Origin: an uncultured Solirubrobacteraceae bacterium
Lineage (GTDB): Bacteria > Actinomycetota > Thermoleophilia > Solirubrobacterales > Solirubrobacteraceae
Direction of reading: 5' to 3'
DNA: 37,998 nucleotides
Assembly (NCBI GenBank): GCA_902806205.1
Contig: CADCVR010000008.1
Span: 1 to 37,998 of the forward strand
Every line of letters begins with the position of its first letter. The stretch's first letter is position 1. The notes under the pieces are model-generated. The model made no database searches, was not told where the DNA came from, and saw only the letters and a list, made by a program, of their open reading frames with translations. Below are positions 16,153-28,465 of this stretch, one piece after another. A program made the position numbers and the translations under genes.

Positions 16153-17262
16153 GTGATGTCCTCGAGCGATCCTCATCCGTCGTTGCCCGTGATCAAGCTC
16201 GGCGACCACCGGGTGGTGAACCCGCAGCCCGGCGAGCCGGAGTTCCTGTCGGCGGCCTCCGGCACGGCGTGGTCGGCGACGCGCCTCTACTCCGTCGGCG
16301 ACGACCAGGCCACCGTGGCGGAGTTCGACCTCGATCCCACGCAGGTGCTCGAGGCGCTGCGCGCCGACCAGGACACCGACATCCTCAGACCGGGAGTCGC
16401 GGAGCGGATCATCCCCGAGGTGCTGCCGATCGACCCCAAGGAGCGGGCGTCCAAGAAGGCGGACTTCGAGGCGCTGACCCTGGTGCGGCGCTGCGACATC
16501 GAGCAGCTGCGCCACCCGGCCCGCGCCGAGATCCTGCGGCGTTTCCCGCACGGGCTGCTGATGATGTCCGGCTCGGGCGGCATGAGCTGGGAGGGCTTCA
16601 GGCGCTCCACCTGCGTGGTCTACTCGTTGGACGACCAGGGGCACATCGCCGGGCTGCCGGCGAAGATCTCCCTGGAAGCGCTGCACGACTCGCTGGAGAA
16701 GGGTGATCAGGTCAACGGTGATCTGAACATCGAGGGGATGGCCGTCTACGGCCAATCCCTGGTGCTCGCCCAGCGCGGCAACTCGGTCGACGCGGACGGC
16801 AACCCGGCGCAGAACCTGCTGATCTTCCTCGACCTCGGCGAGGTGCTCGAGTCGATCTACACGGATCTCTCCGTCGGGGTGCTCGAGCTGCAGGGGACCC
16901 GGAGCTACGAGCTGGGTCACCTGCCCGTCGAGCACGACGGCGTGACCCACGAGGTGAAGATCGACTTCACCGACCTCGACGCGATCACTGACGACCCGCA
17001 CGGACGGCTCGTGTTCACCGCCGCCGGCGAGGGCCCGGACGGTTCGCCGGTGCAGAACGTCATCGCGGGATCGGCGGTGGGGGTCATCTCGGCCGACGGG
17101 GAGCTGCTGTCGATCACCCCGTTGGCCGACCGCAGCATCAAGCTCGAAGGCGTGGACGCGCGGTACAACCCGACCCTGGGCAGCATCGACCTGCTCCTGG
17201 TCTCCGACGCGGACGACCCGGACGTGCCGGCGCCGCTGTTCGCGGCGCGACTGCTGCGGTGA
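16153..17262 (+). CDS. Hypothetical beta-propeller-like protein
   Basis: A 369-residue soluble protein with no signal peptide; the start is either GTG 16153 or ATG 16156. The composition is strand- and Asp-rich. The segment LNIEGMAVYGQSLVLAQRGN resembles the 'IEG' strand of phytase-like or DUF6929-type beta-propellers, and ILRRFPHGLLMMSGSGGMSW fits another blade. There is no obvious catalytic motif. It is directly downstream of yccF. The fold is an inference from pattern, and I give no function. Confidence 0.7.
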   Translation: MMSSSDPHPSLPVIKLGDHRVVNPQPGEPEFLSAASGTAWSATRLYSVGDDQATVAEFDLDPTQVLEALRADQDTDILRPGVAERIIPEVLPIDPKERASKKADFEALTLVRRCDIEQLRHPARAEILRRFPHGLLMMSGSGGMSWEGFRRSTCVVYSLDDQGHIAGLPAKISLEALHDSLEKGDQVNGDLNIEGMAVYGQSLVLAQRGNSVDADGNPAQNLLIFLDLGEVLESIYTDLSVGVLELQGTRSYELGHLPVEHDGVTHEVKIDFTDLDAITDDPHGRLVFTAAGEGPDGSPVQNVIAGSAVGVISADGELLSITPLADRSIKLEGVDARYNPTLGSIDLLLVSDADDPDVPAPLFAARLLR

Positions 17263-17413: not shown

Positions 17414-17448
17414 TTAGGTCCCGGGGCATGACCCGGGACACCGCATGA
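17414..17448 (+). promoter_or_regulatory. Possible -10 box, leader ORF and inverted repeat before hemerythrin gene
   Basis: A weak -10-like TTAGGT (17414-17419) precedes an ATG at 17428 that encodes MTRDTA and stops at 17448, overlapping the hemerythrin ATG (17445) as ATGA. The same stretch holds a perfect inverted repeat TCCCGGG-GCATGA-CCCGGGA (17419-17438) whose loop contains the leader ATG, so a hairpin could hide the leader start. Confidence 0.35.
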
Positions 17449-18173
17449 CCACGTCGATCGCCGGCCGGAGCGAAGCGGCGCTCGGTGGGCCGGCCAGCAT
17501 CATCGTCCGCCAGCGGCGAGAGCACGCACGGCTGCACGAGCTCGTCGGGCGCGTGCGCGACACCGCTGGCACCGAGCAGGACGAGGTGCTGACCCAGCTG
17601 TGCCGGCTCGTCTTCCCCCACGCCTTCGCCGAGGAGGCGGTGCTCTTCCCGGCCGCTCGCCGGTTCCTCGGAGAGGGCGAGGAGAACAGCCTCGAGATCG
17701 AGCAGGAACATCAGGAGATCAACGAGGTCTACAGCGCGCTGGAGCGCAGCCGTCGAGGCGACGAGGGGCGGGAGAAGCTCATCGAACGCGCCATCGCCCT
17801 GCTCGATCACGACGTGCGCGACGAGGAGGACGACCTGCTCCCGCGCCTGCGGGAGCGCCTCGACGACCGCCAGCTGCGGCGCCTCGGGGTGAGCTGGGAG
17901 ATCGCGCGCCGCGTCTCGCCCACCCGCGCCCATCCCGCCGTCTCACGCCGCCCGCCCGGGCAGACGCTCTCCGCGCTCCCACTCACGGTCCTGGACCGTA
18001 GCCGGGACAACCTCGACCGCCTCGCCCGCAGCGCCCCCGCACCCGTCGCGGCGGGCAGCCGCGCGGTCAGCCGGGCGCTCGGCACGGTGGCCGGACTCGT
18101 CGAGCACCTCCCGCCCTTCGAGCGCGGGGAGCACCCGAGCACCCACACCCCGCGCACCGAGCTCGAGTCCTGA
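17445..18173 (+). CDS. Hemerythrin HHE domain protein
   Basis: A 242-residue cytoplasmic protein. The first about 150 residues form a four-helix bundle with spaced iron ligands: REHARLHELVGRV, VFPHAFAEEAVLFPAARR, IEQEHQEINEVYSAL and LLDHDVRDEEDDLLPRLRER. The His/Glu pattern fits a di-iron HHE site as in RIC/YtfE-like or oxygen-sensing hemerythrins. Residues about 155-242 are Arg/Pro-rich and low in structure, possibly a membrane- or nucleic-acid-contacting tail. A roughly 180-bp gap precedes it, so it probably has its own promoter. Likely roles are iron, nitric oxide or oxygen handling; the nearby nitrate genes make nitric oxide relevant, by inference only. Confidence 0.85.
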   Translation: MTTSIAGRSEAALGGPASIIVRQRREHARLHELVGRVRDTAGTEQDEVLTQLCRLVFPHAFAEEAVLFPAARRFLGEGEENSLEIEQEHQEINEVYSALERSRRGDEGREKLIERAIALLDHDVRDEEDDLLPRLRERLDDRQLRRLGVSWEIARRVSPTRAHPAVSRRPPGQTLSALPLTVLDRSRDNLDRLARSAPAPVAAGSRAVSRALGTVAGLVEHLPPFERGEHPSTHTPRTELES

Positions 18174-18221: not shown

Positions 18222-18968
18222 CTACTGCGTGATGGTCAGCGGGATCCCGCCGCCGATGCGTCGGGCCATCCACGTGATGGCGGCTGGGCTCAGCCGGATG
18301 CACCCGTGGGAGACGGCGGTCCCGAGCGCGCCCGAGATGTTGCGGGTTCCGTGAAGCGCTATCTGCCCGGGGCCACCGGCGAATTCCTGCAGCACCTGTG
18401 AGCGGGCGCTCGTGGCCAGCGCGAACGGGGCGCCCCCGTCCGAGGGGGAGAGCGCGACGGCCTCTTCGATGAAGAATCGGCCTCGTGGGGTCGGCGTCGA
18501 GGACTTACCGATGACGGCGCGGAAGCGGCGCTCGGTGCGGCCGTCGCGGTAGACGGTGACGCGGCGGGTGGAGAGCTTGAGCGCGATGTGCCACTCCGTG
18601 GAAGACGATCTGGTCCGGTCGGTGGGAATCCAGCCGTGGTGCCCGTTCGGCCGCCCGGGAAGCCGGACGTGCGTCCAGGAGCGCCCGTCGCTGCCGGTCG
18701 CGGTGCCGAGCACCGGGAGGACGGTCGGAACGTTCGTCAGCGGACGCCGGGCGCTGACCGACTCGATCTGGCGCGCTCTGACGTCTGGCCGGGTTCGGGC
18801 GACGTGATCTTGCAGGAGTGACACCAGGCGCTGGCTCGCGGGCACCGCAGCCGCGCGCTCCGGAGCCCCGACGCAGACCGCGCCGACGGCGACGAGCGCC
18901 AGCGCGAGTGTTGCGACCCCACGGCCGCAGCCGGAAGGTCCGTCGAGGCTGCGTGTCGTGCGGCTCAT
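18222..18968 (-). CDS. L,D-transpeptidase (YkuD domain)
   Basis: A 248-residue exported enzyme that makes 3-3 peptidoglycan cross-links or links proteins to the wall. An N-terminal hydrophobic segment (GVATLALALVAVGAVCVGAP) ending at ERAAA acts as signal peptide or anchor. A roughly 90-residue region follows, with an SH3-like GTATGSDGRSWTHVRLPGRP and HHGWIPTDRT. The YkuD domain spans about residues 125-248: EWHIALKLSTRRVTVYRDGR, TPTPRGRFFIEE, and the active site IALHGTRN to VSHGCIRLS with catalytic His and Cys. The ATG overlaps the stop of the upstream surface protein gene by four bases, so it is coupled to that protein. Confidence 0.92.
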   Translation of the reverse strand: MSRTTRSLDGPSGCGRGVATLALALVAVGAVCVGAPERAAAVPASQRLVSLLQDHVARTRPDVRARQIESVSARRPLTNVPTVLPVLGTATGSDGRSWTHVRLPGRPNGHHGWIPTDRTRSSSTEWHIALKLSTRRVTVYRDGRTERRFRAVIGKSSTPTPRGRFFIEEAVALSPSDGGAPFALATSARSQVLQEFAGGPGQIALHGTRNISGALGTAVSHGCIRLSPAAITWMARRIGGGIPLTITQ

Positions 18969-20269
18969 CCCGCGAAGCGCGACGGGCCGCGGCGCGGGCG
19001 GAGCACTGCTGCCGCGCACGGGCGGTAGCCGAGCGTCAAGACCCGGGGGCGGGTGGCGTCCTTGAACGTGACGCGAGCGGTGACCTTGTGCCGGCCCGGG
19101 GCGGCCCGCACGTACACCTTGAACGGTGACCGTGCCCGGCTGGCGATCCGCTTGCCGTCCAGGCTGAAGACCACCTGCTTGATCCCACGCCCCCGGACCG
19201 TGGCGCGGAATCCCGCCGTGCAGCTCGCAAACGGCGCGCGCCGCATGACGGTCTTGCCCTTCCGGGCGACGGTGGAGATCGAGGTCGCCTCGCCGGCCGG
19301 AGCCGGCGAGGTGGATCCGGGGCGGCTCGACGTGATCGCGGCGACCGGAGCCGGCGACGCGGGTGCCGGGCCGGTCCCGGCGGGGGCCGTGGGTGCCGGG
19401 CCGCTCGGGCTGGTCTCAGTGGGGGGCGTGGGAGTGGGGCCGCTCGGGCTGGTCTCGGCGGGCGGCGTGGGGGCCGGGGGGACCGGAGTGGTGTCGGTGG
19501 GCGGCGTCGGCGTCGGGTTGGTCGGGGTCGTGTCGGCGGGGGGGATGGGCGACGTGGTGCCGGCGGCGCACTGCGAGTTGCTCAGGACGTTGGTATCCAG
19601 GGTGACTGCCCCGTTGCGGGCGAGTGTCCGCCCGATCACCGACGCTCCGGTGTTCACCGAGATGCTCGTGAGCGCCAGCACGTTGCCCTGGAACGCCGTG
19701 GTGGTGCCGATGGTCGCCGAGCTGCCGACCTGCCAGAAGACGTTGCACGGCGAGGCTCCGTTGATCAGCACGACCGAGCTGGCCGATGCGGTGGTCAGCG
19801 TGGAGCCGATCATGAAGACGAACTGCGCGTTGGGATCGCCCTGGGCGTCCAGGGTGACGGTTCCCGTGAGCTGCGCCGAAGAGGCATACCGGTAGGCCCC
19901 GGCCGGCAGCGCTTGTCCGCCCAGGTCGGTGCCGGTCAGGTCGCGGGTGACCGCCTGTCCGGCCGCGACGTCGTACGCGGTGGTGAGGTCGGCCTGCGCC
20001 TGCCGGGCGACGGCGTCGTTGGCGTGCGTGGCGCCGTTGACGACCGCGGGCAGCCCGAAGCCCACGAGGGCGGTTCCGGGAGCGACCCCGAGATCGCCGT
20101 TGAGCACCGACGGGCCGGTGTTGGTGACGGTGGAGCCGCCCAGGACCACGAAGGGTCCGGAGGTGGCGAGGTTGACCGGGGCGGCCTGGGCGGCGACCGG
20201 TACGGCCGCGAAGGCGAGGCTCGCGGCGAGGGCGATGCCGGAGCGCTTGAGGGAGGCAGAGCTGGACAC
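18965..20269 (-). CDS. Secreted DUF3494 (ice-binding-like) surface protein
   Basis: A 434-residue exported protein. Residues 1-29 are a signal peptide ending AQA, followed by a DUF3494 beta-helix (about 30-240): NLATSGPFVVLGGSTVTNTG, GDLGVAPGTALVGFG, DLTTAYDVAAGQ, QFVFMIGSTLTTASASSVVL, FWQVGSSATIGTTTAFQGNV. Residues about 247-335 are a Pro/Thr/Ser linker with a 13-residue repeat. The last 80-90 residues form a small Ig-like domain with two cysteines (PFASCTAGFRATVRGRGIKQ, LTLGYRPCAA). DUF3494 proteins bind ice in cold species, but most mesophile members are thought to be surface adhesins. The GTG at 20269 follows AGGA. A c-di-GMP-type riboswitch lies in the leader. Confidence 0.88.
   Translation of the reverse strand: MSSSASLKRSGIALAASLAFAAVPVAAQAAPVNLATSGPFVVLGGSTVTNTGPSVLNGDLGVAPGTALVGFGLPAVVNGATHANDAVARQAQADLTTAYDVAAGQAVTRDLTGTDLGGQALPAGAYRYASSAQLTGTVTLDAQGDPNAQFVFMIGSTLTTASASSVVLINGASPCNVFWQVGSSATIGTTTAFQGNVLALTSISVNTGASVIGRTLARNGAVTLDTNVLSNSQCAAGTTSPIPPADTTPTNPTPTPPTDTTPVPPAPTPPAETSPSGPTPTPPTETSPSGPAPTAPAGTGPAPASPAPVAAITSSRPGSTSPAPAGEATSISTVARKGKTVMRRAPFASCTAGFRATVRGRGIKQVVFSLDGKRIASRARSPFKVYVRAAPGRHKVTARVTFKDATRPRVLTLGYRPCAAAVLRPRRGPSRFAG
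19401..19478 (-). repeat. Two 39-bp tandem units in the Pro/Thr linker
   Basis: The block CCGCTCGGGCTGGTCTC recurs at 19401 and 19440, a 39-base period equal to 13 residues (ETSPSGPTPTPPT, then ETSPSGPAPTAPA). It encodes part of the linker of the DUF3494 protein; less exact units extend on both sides. It is a coding repeat, not a CRISPR. Confidence 0.7.
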
Positions 20270-20622: not shown

Positions 20623-22134
20623 ATGAGCACGACCATCGCCGCACCGCCCACCCGCACGCCCGCCTCACCGATGTCGCGCGGCCGCTGGATCGATCACTGG
20701 GAGCCCGAGGACGAGGCGTTCTGGCAGGCGACGGGCAAGCGGACAGCTCGCAAGAACCTCGTGTTCTCGATCTTCGCGGAGAACATCGGCTTCTCGATCT
20801 GGGTGCTGTGGACGATCATCGTCCTGAACCTCGTGAACGTCGGGATCACGATGAGCCTCTCGGAGCTCTTCGTGCTCGTGGCGGTCCCGAACCTCATCGG
20901 CGCGTTCCTGCGGATCCCCTACACGTTCGCGGTGCCGCGCTTCGGCGGCCGGGCGTGGACGACCGTCTCCGCGTCGCTTCTGCTGATCCCGTGCCTGCTG
21001 CTCGCCGTCGTCGTCCCGAGCGGCTGGCTGGCCGGACTGGGGCACGATGCGCAGTTCTGGGTGCTGCTCGCCTGCGCGGCGACCGCCGGCGTGGGGGGCG
21101 GGAACTTCTCGTCCTCGATGGCGAACATCTCGTTCTTCTACCCCGAGGGCAAGAAGGGCTTCGCGCTCGGCCTGAACGCCGCGGGCGGCAACCTCGGCGT
21201 CGCGACCGCCCAGCTCGCCGTCCCGCTCGTGCTGATCGTCGGCGTGCCCGCCGCGGCCGTGAAGCTGCCCGTCCACGAGGTGAACCTCGCCTACGCCGGG
21301 CTCATGTGGATGCCCTTCATCGTCGCGGCGGCGGTGGGCGCCTGGCTGTACATGGATTCGCTGACCCAGGCCAAGGCGGACACGCGCTCCTACACCAAGG
21401 CGCTCTCCCACGGCCAGACCTGGATCATGTCCGTGCTCTACATCGGGACGTTCGGCTCGTTCATCGGCTACTCGTTCGCGCTGCCGCTGGTCATCAAGAA
21501 CACGTTCCCGGACTTCCTCGCCGGCCACGCCTTCATCGCGACCTACCTCGCCGGGCTCGGCTTCGTCGGCGCCCTGCTGGGCTCGGTCTCGCGGCCCTTC
21601 GGCGGCTGGCTGGCCGACCGGGTCGGCGGCGCGCGCGTGACGCTCGGGTGCTTCATCGGGATGGGCGCCTTCACCGGCCTGGCGATCGCCGGGGTCCAGG
21701 GCCGCTCGTTCACGACGTTCTTCGCGGCCTACATGGCGATCTTCGTCCTGGCCGGCATGGGCAACGGCTCGACCTACCGGATGATCCCGGCGATCTTCGC
21801 CGCGCTCGGCCGGCGCGAGGGCGGCGACCCGCTCGACTTCAAGCGGCGCGCCGCGGCGGTCATCGGCATCGCGGGAGCGATCGGGGCCTTCGGCGGCTTT
21901 CTCATCCAGGTGGCCTTCCGCCAGGCGTCGCTCGATGTCGGGGCGGCGGTGAAGGCGGCCGCGACGCCCGCGGAGAAGGTCGCCGTCGCCTCCGCCCAGG
22001 CCGACTGGTCGGTCCCGGCGCTGTGGGTCTTCCTCGGCGCCTACGGGGTCATGGCGGTGATCACCTGGGCCTGCTACCTGCGCAGGGCGCCGAGTGCCTC
22101 CCGGGTCCCGTCGCTGGCCTACGCGGGGGTCTGA
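20623..22134 (+). CDS. narK: Nitrate/nitrite transporter, MFS
   Basis: A 503-residue major facilitator with 12 predicted membrane helices. The nitrate-specific signature is seen in helix 5 as GVGGGNFSSSMANISFFYPE followed by KKGFALGLNAAGGNLGVA, and its partner in the second half as AGMGNGSTYRMIPAIFAALG. The N-terminal cytoplasmic stretch of about 40 residues (RWIDHWEPEDEAFWQATGKR) is typical of actinobacterial NarK/NarU. It imports nitrate or exchanges it for nitrite. It heads the operon with nirB, nirD and the nitrate reductase; nirB begins three bases after its stop. Confidence 0.96.
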   Translation: MSTTIAAPPTRTPASPMSRGRWIDHWEPEDEAFWQATGKRTARKNLVFSIFAENIGFSIWVLWTIIVLNLVNVGITMSLSELFVLVAVPNLIGAFLRIPYTFAVPRFGGRAWTTVSASLLLIPCLLLAVVVPSGWLAGLGHDAQFWVLLACAATAGVGGGNFSSSMANISFFYPEGKKGFALGLNAAGGNLGVATAQLAVPLVLIVGVPAAAVKLPVHEVNLAYAGLMWMPFIVAAAVGAWLYMDSLTQAKADTRSYTKALSHGQTWIMSVLYIGTFGSFIGYSFALPLVIKNTFPDFLAGHAFIATYLAGLGFVGALLGSVSRPFGGWLADRVGGARVTLGCFIGMGAFTGLAIAGVQGRSFTTFFAAYMAIFVLAGMGNGSTYRMIPAIFAALGRREGGDPLDFKRRAAAVIGIAGAIGAFGGFLIQVAFRQASLDVGAAVKAAATPAEKVAVASAQADWSVPALWVFLGAYGVMAVITWACYLRRAPSASRVPSLAYAGV

Positions 22135-22137
22135 GCG

Positions 22138-24552
22138 GTGTTCTCGACGCACGGCATCCTCGTGGCCGGTGGCGGCATCGCGGGCCAGGCGGTCTGCGAG
22201 GCCGTCCGCGCCCGCGACCCGCACGTCGCGCTCACGCTCGTCTGCGCGGAGGCCCACAAGCCCTACGACCGCGTGCGCCTCGGCGCGCTGCTCGCGGACG
22301 GCACGTCGGTGGAGGATCTGCGGCTGCGGCCCGACGAGTGGTACGCCGACCGTCAGATCACCGTCCTGACCTCCACGCGGGTCGTCGGCGCCGACCTCGA
22401 CGCGGGGACCGTCGCGCTGAGCGACGGCACGGTCCGTCACGCCGACCGGGTCGTCCTGTGCACGGGCTCCGACGCGTTCGTCCCGCCGCTGCCGGGCCGC
22501 GAGCTGCCGGGTGTCGTCGTCTTCCGTGACCCGGCCGACTGCGCCGCGATGGTCGCCCGCAGCGCGCAGATCGAACGCGCGGCGGTCATCGGCGGCGGGC
22601 TGCTCGGCCTGGAGGCCGCCCACGCGCTGGCCGCCCGGGGCTGCGCGACGTCCGTCGTCCACCTCGTCGACCGGCTCATGGAGCGCCAGCTCGACGCGCC
22701 GGCCGCGGCGATGCTCGCCCCCGCGATGGAGGGCCTGGGCGTCGACGTCCGCCTCTCGCACGCGACCCAGGAGATCGCCGCGGACCCCGACGGCCGCGTG
22801 GCGGGCCTGCTGTTCTCCGACGGGACGTCGCTGGCCTGCCAGCTCGTCGTCGTGGCCGTCGGGATCCGCCCGCAGGTCGGCCTCGCGCGCACGCTGGGCC
22901 TGGCCGTCGAGCGTGGCATCGTCGTCGACGACCGCCTGACGACCTCGCACCCGCGGGTCCTCGCCGTCGGCGAGTGCGCCCAGCACCGCGGGACCGTCCA
23001 CGGGATCGTCGCCCCGATCCACGACCAGGCGCTCGTCGCGGCGCGGACACTCACGGGCGCCGACGCGGCCTACGCCGGGTCGATCCCGACGGCGAAGCTC
23101 AAGGTCATGGGCGTCGACCTCGTCACCGCGGGAGCGGCGGAGGGCGAGCGCGAAGTCCTCGCGGCCGACGCCACCGCCCAGACGTACCGCAAGCTCGTCC
23201 TCGGCGCCGACGGGACGGTGCTCGGCGCGGTCCTCCTCGGCGACATCCGCGGCGCGGAGCTGCTCATGGACGCCGTCCGTACCGGGACGACGACCGAGGA
23301 CGGCCTCGCGCTGCTCGCCGAGGCATCGCAGGCCACGGCGGCCGAGCTGCCCGACACCGCGCAGGTCTGCAACTGCAACGGCGTCTGCAAGGGCGCGATC
23401 GTCGGGGCGATCCGGGAGGGCGGGCTCGGCTCGACGCAGGAGGTCGTGCGGGTGACGCGGGCGGGCGCGGGCTGCGGCTCCTGCAAGCCGATCGTCTCCG
23501 AGCTCTTGGCTCTCGAGCGCGCGGGGGCCGCCGAGGAGCCGGCGTACCTGTGCCCGTGCGCGCGCCAGACGCGCGAGCAGCTCGCGGCGATCGTGCGCGA
23601 CGAGGACGTCAGGTCGGTCTCGGCGCTCGGCGAGGCGTGCGGGGCCGGGCGCGCCTGCGGCGCCTGCAAGCCCGGGTTGTCCTACCTGCTCGAGGAGCGC
23701 CAGGCCGGCCGCTTCCGCCAGGAGCGCCACGCGAAGTTCATCAACGACCGCGTGCACGCGAACATCCAGCACGACGGCACGTTCTCGGTGGTCCCCCGGA
23801 TCCGCGGAGGGGTCGTGACCGCCGACGAGCTGCGGCGCTTCGCCGACGTGGCCGACAAGTACGAGCTGCCGATGATCAAGATCACCGGCGGGCAGCGCAT
23901 CGACCTGCTCGGCGTCACCAAGGAGCAGCTCCCGGCCGTCTGGGAGGACCTGGGGATGCCCTCCGGCTACGCCTACTCCAAGGCGGTCCGCACGGTGAAG
24001 ACGTGCGTCGGGACGCAGTTCTGCCGGTTCGGCCTCGGCGACGCGATCACCGTCGGCATCGACCTGGAGGAGGCGATGGAGGGCCTGCACACGCCGCACA
24101 AGGTCAAGTCGGCGGTCGCGGGCTGCCCGCGCAACTGCTCAGAGGCCTACGTCAAGGACATCGGGCTGGTCGCCGTCGAAGGCGGCTGGGAGGTCTACGT
24201 CGGCGGGGCGTCGGGGGCGACCATCCGCAAGGGCGACCTGCTCGCCACGGTCGCGACGGCCGCCGAGGGCAAGCGGGTCGCGCTGGCCTTCCTGCAGCAC
24301 TACCGCGAGGAGGGCGACCACCTCGAGCGGACCTACGGCTACCTGGAGCGCGTCGGGCTGGATGCGGTGCAGGCGGCCGTCCTCGATCCCGAGCGGATGG
24401 CCGCGCTGCTCGAGCGCTTCGCGATCGCCAGGGCCGCGTGCGACCCGGATCCGTGGCGCGAGCGCAGTGCGCCCGTGCACCCCAAGCAGTTCGCCGAGCT
24501 CGACTCGGACGCCGCGCTCGATCTCGTCGCTCCGGCCGAGGCGACGCGATGA
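22138..24552 (+). CDS. nirB: NAD(P)H-dependent nitrite reductase, large subunit
   Basis: An 804-residue cytoplasmic enzyme that reduces nitrite to ammonium with NAD(P)H. Domains in order: FAD-binding (GILVAGGGIAGQAV, near residue 6), NAD-binding (RAAVIGGGLLGLEAAHALAA, near 150), a BFD [2Fe-2S] domain (VCNCNGVCKG to GCGSCKP, about 415-455), a second BFD-like unit (LCPCARQT to CGACKP, about 480-525), and the siroheme/[4Fe-4S] half with TVKTCVGTQFCRFGLGD and VAGCPRNCSEAYVKDIG supplying the four cluster cysteines. The GTG at 22138 is set by spacing after narK. The stop overlaps the nirD ATG. Confidence 0.96.
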   Translation: MFSTHGILVAGGGIAGQAVCEAVRARDPHVALTLVCAEAHKPYDRVRLGALLADGTSVEDLRLRPDEWYADRQITVLTSTRVVGADLDAGTVALSDGTVRHADRVVLCTGSDAFVPPLPGRELPGVVVFRDPADCAAMVARSAQIERAAVIGGGLLGLEAAHALAARGCATSVVHLVDRLMERQLDAPAAAMLAPAMEGLGVDVRLSHATQEIAADPDGRVAGLLFSDGTSLACQLVVVAVGIRPQVGLARTLGLAVERGIVVDDRLTTSHPRVLAVGECAQHRGTVHGIVAPIHDQALVAARTLTGADAAYAGSIPTAKLKVMGVDLVTAGAAEGEREVLAADATAQTYRKLVLGADGTVLGAVLLGDIRGAELLMDAVRTGTTTEDGLALLAEASQATAAELPDTAQVCNCNGVCKGAIVGAIREGGLGSTQEVVRVTRAGAGCGSCKPIVSELLALERAGAAEEPAYLCPCARQTREQLAAIVRDEDVRSVSALGEACGAGRACGACKPGLSYLLEERQAGRFRQERHAKFINDRVHANIQHDGTFSVVPRIRGGVVTADELRRFADVADKYELPMIKITGGQRIDLLGVTKEQLPAVWEDLGMPSGYAYSKAVRTVKTCVGTQFCRFGLGDAITVGIDLEEAMEGLHTPHKVKSAVAGCPRNCSEAYVKDIGLVAVEGGWEVYVGGASGATIRKGDLLATVATAAEGKRVALAFLQHYREEGDHLERTYGYLERVGLDAVQAAVLDPERMAALLERFAIARAACDPDPWRERSAPVHPKQFAELDSDAALDLVAPAEATR

Positions 24553-24872
24553 GCCCCGTCCTGTCCGAGACGGGCTTCGTCGCCGTCGGCGCCGCCGCGG
24601 ACGTCCCCGCGCTCGAGGGGCGCAGCGTCCTCGTCGACGGGCGGCGCATCGCGATCTTCCGCCTGCCGGACGGCTGGGCGGCGACCGACGCGGCCTGCCC
24701 GCACCGCGGCGGCCCGCTGCAGGACGGGATCGTGGCCGATCACTGCGTCACCTGCCCGCTGCACAACCGGCGCTTCGACCTGCGCACGGGCCGGCAGGAC
24801 GGCGGCGACGACGCCGTCGCCGTCCACGAGGTCTTCGAGCGGGACGGCATGCTCTGGATGCGGCTCGCGTGA
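24549..24872 (+). CDS. nirD: Nitrite reductase small subunit, Rieske type
   Basis: A 107-residue Rieske-fold partner of NirB. The cluster motifs ACPHRGGPL and VTCPLHNRRFDL are complete (C-x-H ... C-x2-H), so it should hold a [2Fe-2S] centre, unlike the cluster-free NirD of enterobacteria. It is coupled on both sides: ATGA overlap with nirB and GTGA overlap with the nitrate reductase. Confidence 0.94.
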   Translation: MSPVLSETGFVAVGAAADVPALEGRSVLVDGRRIAIFRLPDGWAATDAACPHRGGPLQDGIVADHCVTCPLHNRRFDLRTGRQDGGDDAVAVHEVFERDGMLWMRLA

Positions 24873-27800
24873 GCCGCCCGCACACGCGCGAGGTCAGGAC
24901 GGGGTGCCCGTACTGCGGCACGGGCTGCGGCCTGATCGCCGAGGTCTCCGGCGGCCGGGTGACCGCGGTCAAGGGCGACTTCCTGCACCCCGTGAGCCGC
25001 GGCGCGACGTGCCGCAAGCCGCTGGGGCTGCCCGAAGCGCTGAGGTCGGCCGATCGCGCGCTCGCGCCGCTGTGGCGCGAGAGCGCGGACGCGCGCTGGC
25101 GCGAGCGGACGTGGCCTCAGACCACCGGTGAGCTGGCCCGGCGGCTCGCGGACGTCTCCGAGCGCCACGGTCCCGACGCCATCGCGCTCTACGTCTCGGG
25201 GCAGATGACCACGGAGGACTACTACGTCGCGTCGAAGCTCGCCAAGGGCTTCCTCGGGACGAACAACGTCGACTCGAACTCCCGGCTGTGCATGAGCAGC
25301 GCGGTGGCCGGCTACACGGGGGCGCTGGGCTCCGACGGCCCGCCGCCCTCCTTCGCCGACGTCGACCGGGCCGATCACCTGCTGCTGCTCGGCTCGAACG
25401 CCTCGGCGTGCCATCCCGTCCTCTGGGCGCGGATCCGCCGCCGCCAGGCCGCGGGCGCGCGGGTGACGGTCATCGACCCGCGGCGCACCCCGACCGCCGC
25501 GGCCGCCGACGCCCACCTCCAGGTCCGCCCGGGCGCCGACCTGCCGCTGCTGTCGGCACTGCTCGCGGTGATGGACGCCGAGGACCTCCTCGACCGCGCG
25601 TTCCTCGAGCGCCACACCGAGGGGGCGCAGGCGACGCTCGCGGCTGCCGCCGAGTGGACGCCGGCCCGCGCGGCGGCGATCTGCGGCGTCGACGCCGAGG
25701 CCATCGTCGCCACCGCGCGCGCGTTCGGCGGCGCACGTCGCGCGATGGTCCTGTGGTCGATGGGAGCCAACCAGTCGACGGTCGGGACGCTCAAGAACCG
25801 GGCGCTGATCAACCTCTGCCTCGCGACCGGCAACATCGGGCGGCCGGGCACCGGCCCGCTGTCGCTGACCGGGCAGCCGAACGCGATGGGCGGCCGGGAG
25901 GCCGGCGGGCTGGCGCACCTGCTGCCGGGCTACCGGAAGGTCTCCGACGCCGACGATCGCGCCGAGATGCGGCGGCTGTGGAAGATCCCCGCCGGGGCGC
26001 CGGGCATCTCGCCGGCGCCCGGCATCCCGTCGACCGAGCTCGTCGACGCGCTCGAGGCCGACAAGGTGAAGGTCGTCTGGATCGTCGCGACCAATCCCGT
26101 CGTCTCCCAGCCCGACGCCGCGCGCTTCGCCGCCGCGCTGCGCCGCGCGGAGCTCGTGATCGTCCAGGACGCCTACCACCCGACGGAGACCAGCGCGCTG
26201 GCCCACGTCGTCCTCCCCGCCGCGCAGTGGGGCGAGAAGGACGGGACGCAGACGGGATCCGACCGTCACGTGACGCTGCTGCGCAAGGCCGTCGAGGCGC
26301 CAGGCGGCGCGCTGCCCGACTGGGAGATCTTCGCCCGCGTCGGCCGCGCGCTCGGCCACTCCGAACAGTTCGCCTGGGCGTCGGCCGCCGAGGTGCACGC
26401 CGAGTACGTCGGCACGACCGACGGCCGGCTCTGCGACCAGACCGGCTTGTCGCACGAGCGGCTGCGACGCGAAGGAGCGCTGCAGTGGCCCGTTCCCGCG
26501 CGCGGGGCCGACGGAGAGGATCATCCCGGGACCGAGCGCCTGTACGGCGGCCGGCGCTTCCCGACGCCGAGCGGCCGGGCGCAGCTCGCTCCCACAGCGC
26601 ACGCCGAGCCCGCCGACGCGCCGGACGCCGAGTTCCCGCTCGTCCTGACCACGGGCCGCCTGGCCCACCAGTGGCACACGATGACCCGCACGGGCAAGGC
26701 GAAGGAGCTGCTCGCCGCCGATCCCGAGCCGTTCGTCGCGCTGCACCGCACCGACGCCGAGCGCTTCGGGGTGCAGGACGGCCAGACGATCGTCGTGCGC
26801 TCCCGCCGCGGCCGCGCGACGCTCCGCGCGCGGATCAGCCCGGAGGTCGCCGAGGGGGTCGCCTTCGCGCCGTTCCACTGGGGTGCACTGCACCTGCCGC
26901 CGGGTGCCGGCGCGCTGAACGCCGTGGTGACCCGCGCGATCGACCCGACGAGCCGGCAGGCCGAGCTCAAGGCGAGCGCTGTGCGGGTGGAGCCGGTCGC
27001 GGCCGGCCGGGTCCTCGCCGGGGGCGGCAGGGTGCGCCGGCGGCGGCTGGTCGTCGTGGGTGCCGGCATGGCGGCCATGGCGACCGTCGAGTCGCTCGTG
27101 GCCAACGCGCCCGGAGGCGCGGCCGCCTGGGACGTCACGCTCGTCGGCGCCGAGGACGACGCGCCGTACAACCGCGTGATGCTCTCCCAGGTGCTCGCCG
27201 GCGCCGTCGGCGAGGGAGAGCTTCCCCTGCGCGCCCCGGGATGGTTCACCGAGCGCGACATCACGCTGCGCCTCGGCGTCGCCGCCAGCCTCGTCGACCC
27301 GGCGGCGCGCACCGTCGAGCTCGCCGACGGCGACGTCCTCGGGTACGACGACCTCGTCCTGGCCACGGGCTCGCGGCCGTTCGTCCCGCCCGTCCCGGGG
27401 GCCGACCTGCCCGGCGTCCACGTCTTTCGCACCCGCGCCGACGCCCGGGCGATCCTCGACGGGGCCGCGATGGCCAAGCGGGCCGTGGTCGTGGGCGGCG
27501 GGCTGCTCGGGCTCGAGGCCGCGCGTGCCCTGCGCGCGCGTGGCGTCCGGGTGACGATCGTCCACCTGGCCGAACGGCTCATGGAGCTCCAGCTCGACGG
27601 CCCGGCCGCGTCGCTGCTGGAGCGCGCGCTGCGCGACCTGCGCATCGACGTGCGCACGTCGGCGCGGACGACCGCGCTGACGGGCGACGGGCGCGTCGAG
27701 CGCCTGGTCCTGGCCGGCGGCGAGCAGCTCGCTGCCGACCTGGTCGTCATCGCCGCGGGCGTGCGTCCCGAGGTCGATCTCGCGCGTACCGCGGGCCTGG

Positions 27801-28465
27801 AGGTCGAGCGCGGCATCCTCGTCGACGACGAGCTGCGCACGAGCGCGCCCGGCGTGCGCGCGGTGGGCGAGTGCGCCGAGCACCGCGGCGCGGTCTACGG
27901 CCTCTGGTCCCCGCTGCTCGAGCAGGCGCGCGCCCTCGGCGCCTCACTTGCCCGCCGGCCCGCGGCGTTCCTCGGCGCGCCGCCGGCCACCACGCTGAAG
28001 GTCGCGGGCATCGACCTCTTCTGCTGCGGACGCGTCGCCGAGGCGGCGGCGGACGAGGAGGTGCTCGCGCTGGACACGCGGCGTGGCCGGTACCGGCGCC
28101 TGCTGGTGCGTCCCGACGGCCGCCTGGCGGGGGCGATCCTCCTCGGCGACCTGCGCGACGCCAAGCGGCTGCGGGAGCTGCTGCGCGACGGCGAAGCGGT
28201 GCCGGAGGAGCTGCTCGACGGCGGGGTCCGCGAGGCGGGTGAAGCGGCGACGGCCGACCCCGCCGAGGGTGACCCGGCGGAGGCGATCTGCTCCTGCCAG
28301 GCCGTGACGCGCGGGCAGATCGTCCACGCGATCAAGGACCGGGGACTGACGACCGTGGCGCAAGTGGCCGAGCACACACGCGCCTCGACGGGCTGCGGCG
28401 GCTGCCGGGCGGACGTCGCGGCGATCCTGGCGGCGCTGCGCGACCCGGCCGGGGCCCTGGTGTAG
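24869..28465 (+). CDS. Assimilatory nitrate reductase fused to FAD/NAD reductase and BFD domain
   Basis: A 1198-residue three-part enzyme. Residues 1 to about 715 are the bis-MGD molybdopterin catalytic part: [4Fe-4S] cysteines 13, 16, 20 and 48 (TGCPYCGTGCGLI, GATCRKP) and SNSRLCMSSAVAGYTGALGS, whose Cys is the expected Mo ligand as in Nas/Nap enzymes. From about 720 a NirB/NasB-like FAD reductase follows (RRLVVVGAGMAAMATVE, then the NAD loop RAVVVGGGLLGLEAARALRA near 870). The end is a BFD [2Fe-2S] domain (AICSCQAVTRG to TGCGGCRADV, about 1139-1190). One chain could thus carry electrons from NAD(P)H to nitrate. The GTG start overlaps the nirD stop. Confidence 0.93.
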   Translation: MSRPHTREVRTGCPYCGTGCGLIAEVSGGRVTAVKGDFLHPVSRGATCRKPLGLPEALRSADRALAPLWRESADARWRERTWPQTTGELARRLADVSERHGPDAIALYVSGQMTTEDYYVASKLAKGFLGTNNVDSNSRLCMSSAVAGYTGALGSDGPPPSFADVDRADHLLLLGSNASACHPVLWARIRRRQAAGARVTVIDPRRTPTAAAADAHLQVRPGADLPLLSALLAVMDAEDLLDRAFLERHTEGAQATLAAAAEWTPARAAAICGVDAEAIVATARAFGGARRAMVLWSMGANQSTVGTLKNRALINLCLATGNIGRPGTGPLSLTGQPNAMGGREAGGLAHLLPGYRKVSDADDRAEMRRLWKIPAGAPGISPAPGIPSTELVDALEADKVKVVWIVATNPVVSQPDAARFAAALRRAELVIVQDAYHPTETSALAHVVLPAAQWGEKDGTQTGSDRHVTLLRKAVEAPGGALPDWEIFARVGRALGHSEQFAWASAAEVHAEYVGTTDGRLCDQTGLSHERLRREGALQWPVPARGADGEDHPGTERLYGGRRFPTPSGRAQLAPTAHAEPADAPDAEFPLVLTTGRLAHQWHTMTRTGKAKELLAADPEPFVALHRTDAERFGVQDGQTIVVRSRRGRATLRARISPEVAEGVAFAPFHWGALHLPPGAGALNAVVTRAIDPTSRQAELKASAVRVEPVAAGRVLAGGGRVRRRRLVVVGAGMAAMATVESLVANAPGGAAAWDVTLVGAEDDAPYNRVMLSQVLAGAVGEGELPLRAPGWFTERDITLRLGVAASLVDPAARTVELADGDVLGYDDLVLATGSRPFVPPVPGADLPGVHVFRTRADARAILDGAAMAKRAVVVGGGLLGLEAARALRARGVRVTIVHLAERLMELQLDGPAASLLERALRDLRIDVRTSARTTALTGDGRVERLVLAGGEQLAADLVVIAAGVRPEVDLARTAGLEVERGILVDDELRTSAPGVRAVGECAEHRGAVYGLWSPLLEQARALGASLARRPAAFLGAPPATTLKVAGIDLFCCGRVAEAAADEEVLALDTRRGRYRRLLVRPDGRLAGAILLGDLRDAKRLRELLRDGEAVPEELLDGGVREAGEAATADPAEGDPAEAICSCQAVTRGQIVHAIKDRGLTTVAQVAEHTRASTGCGGCRADVAAILAALRDPAGALV

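Follow-up and report, generated by a model that had tools for sequence, protein, structure and literature searches.

A candidate surface-display module of Solirubrobacterales: a DUF3494 protein with a C-terminal phi-Thr-Gly-type tag and its partner L,D-transpeptidase

The closest described counterparts of the two overlapping genes considered here are systems that fix or process proteins at the cell envelope. These genes, which encode a DUF3494 surface protein and a YkuD-family L,D-transpeptidase (LDT), lie on the minus strand of a 37,998-nucleotide stretch of DNA from an uncultured Solirubrobacteraceae bacterium (assembly GCA_902806205.1, contig CADCVR010000008.1), the whole of which we refer to as the window. 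One such system is sortase with its LPxTG signal. As there, the cargo is a predicted secreted protein of the stalk type, its C-terminal signal has a T-G consensus, and the partner is a Cys transpeptidase; moreover, homologues of the DUF3494 cargo outside the order bear sortase-like C-termini. In contrast to that system, the partner is a YkuD enzyme and not one of the sortase fold, and the tag consists of three terminal residues and lacks the LPx, the membrane helix and the basic tail. A 2025 review of Gram-positive trafficking presents sortase as the covalent route and, in the text searched, leaves LDTs unmentioned (PMC12445088).

YkuD LDTs also act on envelope proteins in known anchoring systems (Braun lipoprotein, OutB and outer-membrane proteins; LdtA/B/C, Ldt03/84, Ldt2 and Ldt4). 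Those systems are Gram-negative and use the protein as acyl acceptor, through a Lys or the N-terminus, whereas the proteins described here have a conserved C-terminal tag and no conserved Lys. The PEP-CTERM and GlyGly-CTERM tags, which are matched to exosortase and rhombosortase, respectively, comprise a membrane helix and a basic end and are handled by intramembrane enzymes. They resemble the present case in that a C-terminal tag is found on unrelated cargo with a matched processing enzyme, and in that dedicated pairs occur as well as many-to-one use, but the helix, the basic end and the intramembrane enzyme are all absent here. The cargo domain itself belongs to PF11999, the family of the DUF3494 ice-binding proteins. 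Our literature search found no report joining DUF3494 with a transpeptidase, and the DUF3494 papers found describe no LDT partner; a search for DUF11 with D-transpeptidase returned nothing that looked relevant by title.

Based on a comparison of the locus with its relatives, we consider it rather probable that the two genes form a surface-display module, in which the LDT recognises a C-terminal sorting signal and attaches the protein that bears it to peptidoglycan.

The gene pair and the end of its cargo protein

The DUF3494 gene (18965..20269, minus; GTG start, 434 amino acids) ends in TTC GCG GGA TGA, and GGATGA yields a 4-nucleotide ATGA overlap (18965..18968, minus) with the gene for the predicted secreted LDT of 248 amino acids (18222..18968, minus). 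The overlap of the DUF3494 stop with the YkuD ATG, noticed earlier in a sequence-only reading of this DNA, is therefore genuine. That reading had proposed a sortase-independent display pair with an anchoring enzyme dedicated to this one surface protein, and a survey of DUF3494-YkuD adjacency found that the pairing is not unique to this genome. The survey covered 101 genomes, namely the window's own and 100 relatives from its genus, family and order (Solirubrobacterales-like), 34 of which had PF11999 matches. We retrieved 45 DUF3494 loci and scanned them for the YkuD motif, limiting counts to genes with enough downstream sequence. A YkuD LDT was the next gene downstream, on the same strand, in 33 of 35 loci of a short type of DUF3494 (exceptions, L090 and L103), and these pairs were spread over 31 genomes and four families. 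By comparison, none of seven long-type DUF3494 genes (E about 1e-45; the C53 copy of the window's own genome included) had an LDT downstream. A start overlapping by four nucleotides was possible in 15 of the 33 pairs. The DUF3494-LDT pair is a conserved module of the order. One DUF3494 gene (L187, G305:C2) contains an in-frame TAG.

All 33 paired proteins have the exact C-terminus (F/L)-(T/A)-G-COOH, with T in the middle position in 29 and A in four; the window protein ends in FAG (18968..18976, minus), and the consensus of the tag is phi-T-G, where phi stands for a hydrophobic residue. Residues further in are not fixed, and the domains ahead of the tag differ widely. The C-terminal domain was ruled out as the conserved element, since other sequences stand there in paired relatives; what is conserved is the last three residues. 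None of the 33, the window protein included, has a hydrophobic helix in its last 60 residues. The unpaired short-type L090 ends in CVA, and the long-type proteins also lack the tag ending; the unpaired L103 ends in FAG, and its genome holds a separate pair (L104). Over 57 tags, all four codons for Thr, all four for Gly and all three stops are used, so conservation lies at the end of the protein and not in the DNA. The same variation, together with variable gaps between the genes, ruled out a ribosome-binding site or the overlap itself as the origin of the tag; non-overlapping genes likewise end in GGC TGA. A role for the Thr hydroxyl as nucleophile was also ruled out, given that Ala stands in place of Thr in six of the 57 tags, the window's among them.

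Outside the order, DUF3494 proteins appear to end differently. Of 20 complete proteins, 16 have a hydrophobic C-terminal helix, and LPxTG-like motifs accompany it in several; no YkuD gene was found beside these 20 in the flanking stretch examined. Within the order, sortase was detected in 72 of the 101 genomes, including the window's, and was not found in the pair-bearing genomes G031 (a single contig), G008, G032 and G056, some of which are incomplete. A sortase-independent display pair, as judged from these sequences, fits both the difference in DUF3494 anchors and the pairs in genomes with no detected sortase, and to this extent the earlier proposal stands. A family member's DUF3494 protein at a contig edge (L067, G012:C48) carries LPKTGFA, a possible sortase-type signal inside the order.

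The tag on other cargo

The genes adjacent to and upstream of about 40 other LDTs of the order often end in V/I/F/L-T-G. A profile built from 30 partner LDTs and run over 246 Actinomycetota genomes added loci in other classes, giving 131 non-edge LDTs, which were compared with 795 other coding-like open reading frames (ORFs). For 57 of the 131 LDTs, the adjoining gene upstream carried a tag, as opposed to 12 of the 795 other ORFs (Fisher p 4e-42), and the enrichment persisted when DUF3494 was left out (24 of 98 LDTs; p 3e-16), although these p values overstate certainty because independence is assumed for related loci and genes were called mechanically. Tagged genes in other orientations near LDTs added L114, L116, L123, L135, L162 and L205. 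At L162 (G106:C140), a single LDT lies beside three different genes, ending in VNFAG, EPTFTG and EPTFTG, and in Amycolatopsis sp. AA4 the gene after that for the LDT WP_234392921.1 encodes WP_009086095.1, which ends in QPVTG.

The Pfam domains of the tagged cargo comprise DUF11 repeats, SpaA, SdrD_B, TED, Big_1, pAdhesive_15, Ferritin_2 and trypsin. Several of these are typical of wall-anchored adhesins and, by their domain matches, the cargo is mostly of surface-protein types. In seven tagged proteins scanned against NCBIfam, the tag was not picked out by any model. Unlinked DUF11 proteins ending in GGVTG, several per genome and with no LDT nearby, were seen in G028 (L285, L286, L290, L291) and in G045 (L282, L284, L292, L293). 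The window's own genome holds a second candidate tag/LDT pair (L123, G000:C24:72000-77500), whose cargo is a divergent 544-codon frame with a weak Big_7 match and the C-terminus RRCAAAVRFTG. A search of this genome for TTCACNGGNTGA gave two matches, a 34-codon frame and an apparent cytosolic peptidase, so that this pattern, outside which TAG or TAA stops and FAG ends fall, revealed no additional FTG substrate.

On a tree of the LDTs, the tagged label required 17 changes, against 42.7 when shuffled. The phi residue required 5 against 13.3, a figure that is partly confounded with cargo. LDTs partnering DUF3494 occupy two distant clades, with F-type tags in both. Within one clade, the ending FTG is shared by DUF3494, DUF11-like and ferritin cargo; elsewhere, cargo and clade are confounded. 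Judging by these genomes, the tag is a phi-Thr-Gly end common to secreted surface proteins in many Actinomycetota, often adjoining an LDT. The notion of an enzyme dedicated to the DUF3494 protein was too narrow, since the same tag occurs on unrelated cargo and on DUF11 proteins without a nearby LDT.

Domains of the two proteins and neighbouring genes

Both proteins have signal-peptide-like N-termini, identified by eye. That of the DUF3494 protein (20183..20269, minus) has a predicted cut between ...FAAVPVAAQA and APV. It is followed by the ice-binding-like domain (19586..20146, minus; PF11999 Ice_binding, E 7e-64), which belongs to the ice-binding-like family and is not a generic surface domain. 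The Pro/Thr-rich spacer (~residues 237-325; 19295..19561, minus) and the small, basic C-terminal part that had also been reported are both present. The latter comprises ~100 residues with two Cys and contains a probably Ig-like domain (19010..19267, minus).

The ATG is the best candidate start of the LDT gene, judged from sequence; the frame stays open upstream of it, and the signal peptide has a long n-region. The LDT has a single Pfam domain, YkuD (PF03734, E 3e-17), and no sortase domain. Its catalytic domain (18249..18590, minus) has an intact motif, ALHGT...SHGCIR, which fits the HG(S/T)...(S/T)xGC-phi-R pattern and whose His, Cys and Arg are invariant in 30 aligned partner LDTs. The predicted structure (predicted local distance difference test, pLDDT, 91) has a YkuD fold and an N-terminal all-beta, possibly SH3-like region (18594..18833, minus), and its best PDB matches are 4a1i and 1y7m (Bacillus subtilis YkuD), followed by LdtMt2/LdtMt1. 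By sequence and model, then, the partner is a YkuD-family LDT with an ordinary fold. A genome scan that used the LDT as query gave two loci; at one of them lies a distant Gammaproteobacterial LDT that has no partner. A relative of the window locus is present in a Solirubrobacteraceae metagenome-assembled genome (L032). Another LDT, with 70% identity to the partner (L044, G100:C265), has no DUF3494 gene upstream and is possibly an orphan after loss.

Convergent with the LDT gene is one for a hemerythrin HHE-domain protein (window 17445-18173), and a DUF6929/DUF6910 protein of unknown function is encoded at 16153-17262. A plus-strand run at 20623-28465 starts with a major facilitator superfamily (MFS) transporter, after which come frames that by eye resemble nitrite reductase, Rieske-type and molybdopterin nitrate reductase proteins; the run looks like a nitrate assimilation cluster.

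Proposed attachment and its alternatives

The sequence evidence covers the pairing, the exact tag, its conservation at the protein level and its spread over unrelated cargo. That tag and LDT are functionally linked appears highly probable, and attachment of the tagged cargo to the wall is likely. We infer recognition of the tag by the LDT, a covalent bond, and the site and direction of that bond, in the following form. The cargo, which has no C-terminal membrane helix, would be exported via its signal peptide and present a terminal phi-(T/A)-G whose carboxylate is free, and the co-expressed, secreted LDT would recognise this tag in order to fix the cargo to peptidoglycan. The catalytic Cys would attack the carbonyl of Thr or Ala, expelling the C-terminal Gly as it does D-Ala4 from the stem tetrapeptide, and the protein would then be passed to a wall amine, probably the side chain of diaminopimelic acid (DAP). 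L-Thr(Ala)-Gly-COOH would thereby mimic the L-DAP-D-Ala end of the stem tetrapeptide, with the protein as acyl donor, and a YkuD enzyme would give a sortase-like outcome. Known LDTs use tetrapeptide donors and release a single terminal residue, at which glycine exchange is possible (PMC10434034; PMC12729407). A protein ending in L-Thr-Gly-COOH could be such a donor because it has one residue past the scissile bond and a terminal residue that is not of the L form. The role of the protein as acyl donor is a plausible but tentative assignment, and with slightly more reserve still we put forward the complete proposal, that of a sortase-independent Actinomycetota pathway in which phi-Thr-Gly-COOH mimics L-DAP-D-Ala, the protein is the donor, Gly is lost, and many unrelated cargo proteins are served.

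Several points weigh against this proposal. An LDT that uses a protein C-terminus as donor is not described in the literature examined, and an N-terminal amine is always available as an acceptor. No tagged gene at all was found near 68 of the 131 small LDTs. In a survey that began from DUF11, 15 of 33 proteins were tagged, but an LDT lay immediately downstream of only one, with little upstream coverage; the tag is consequently not tied to LDT adjacency, and it looks, from these loci, either many-to-few or read by another factor. The tag might merely dock the cargo to the enzyme, in which case the stem tetrapeptide would be the donor and a Lys or the N-terminal amine of the protein the acceptor; in every LDT-protein attachment covered by one review, the protein is indeed the acceptor (PMC12729407). 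We regard docking as unlikely, in that a docking site need not end exactly at the carboxylate and there is no conserved Lys near the tag. Lys is absent from the last 12 residues in 28 of the 33 paired proteins and from the last 30 of the window protein, and the mature part of one paired protein, L073 (cut approximated at residue 35), has none; an Lpp-like Lys acceptor is therefore unlikely. The signal-peptide cut leaves an N-terminal Ala in many paired proteins, as is common in any secreted protein.

The tagged DUF11 proteins without a nearby LDT would be explained if the tag signalled to a different factor (a protease, carboxypeptidase or other sorting enzyme), with LDT adjacency reflecting a shared envelope function. 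This seems quite improbable in view of the strong enrichment beside LDTs, which does not depend on DUF3494, and of the retention of the tag in DUF3494 pairs that use LDTs of two distant clades. Mere co-expression, in which the LDT would act on the wall, by crosslinking or remodelling, during production of the surface protein and the tag would be structural, would suit an ordinary YkuD fold and the fact that 3-3 crosslinks are a common LDT product (PMC12729407). However, it leaves unexplained both the exact three-residue end on unrelated cargo and the exchange with membrane-helix C-termini, and we consider it very unlikely. Least credible is that the tag is an LPxTG signal in shortened form, recognised by a sortase: T-G is similar to the site at which sortase cuts, and most genomes of the order, the window's included, have a sortase, but the tag lacks LPx, membrane helix and basic tail, and pairs exist in genomes in which a sortase was looked for and not found.

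The pairing of tag and LDT suggests an undescribed, sortase-free route of fixing proteins to the wall. Because the tag has three residues, the hypothesis can be tested at little cost, and the tag would be useful for wall labelling if it works. If the proposed attachment is true, LDTs would have a protein-donor reaction that is not described in the literature examined, many DUF11-type adhesins and DUF3494 proteins would have a predicted anchor, and Gram-positive-type bacteria would possess a second covalent display route beside sortase.
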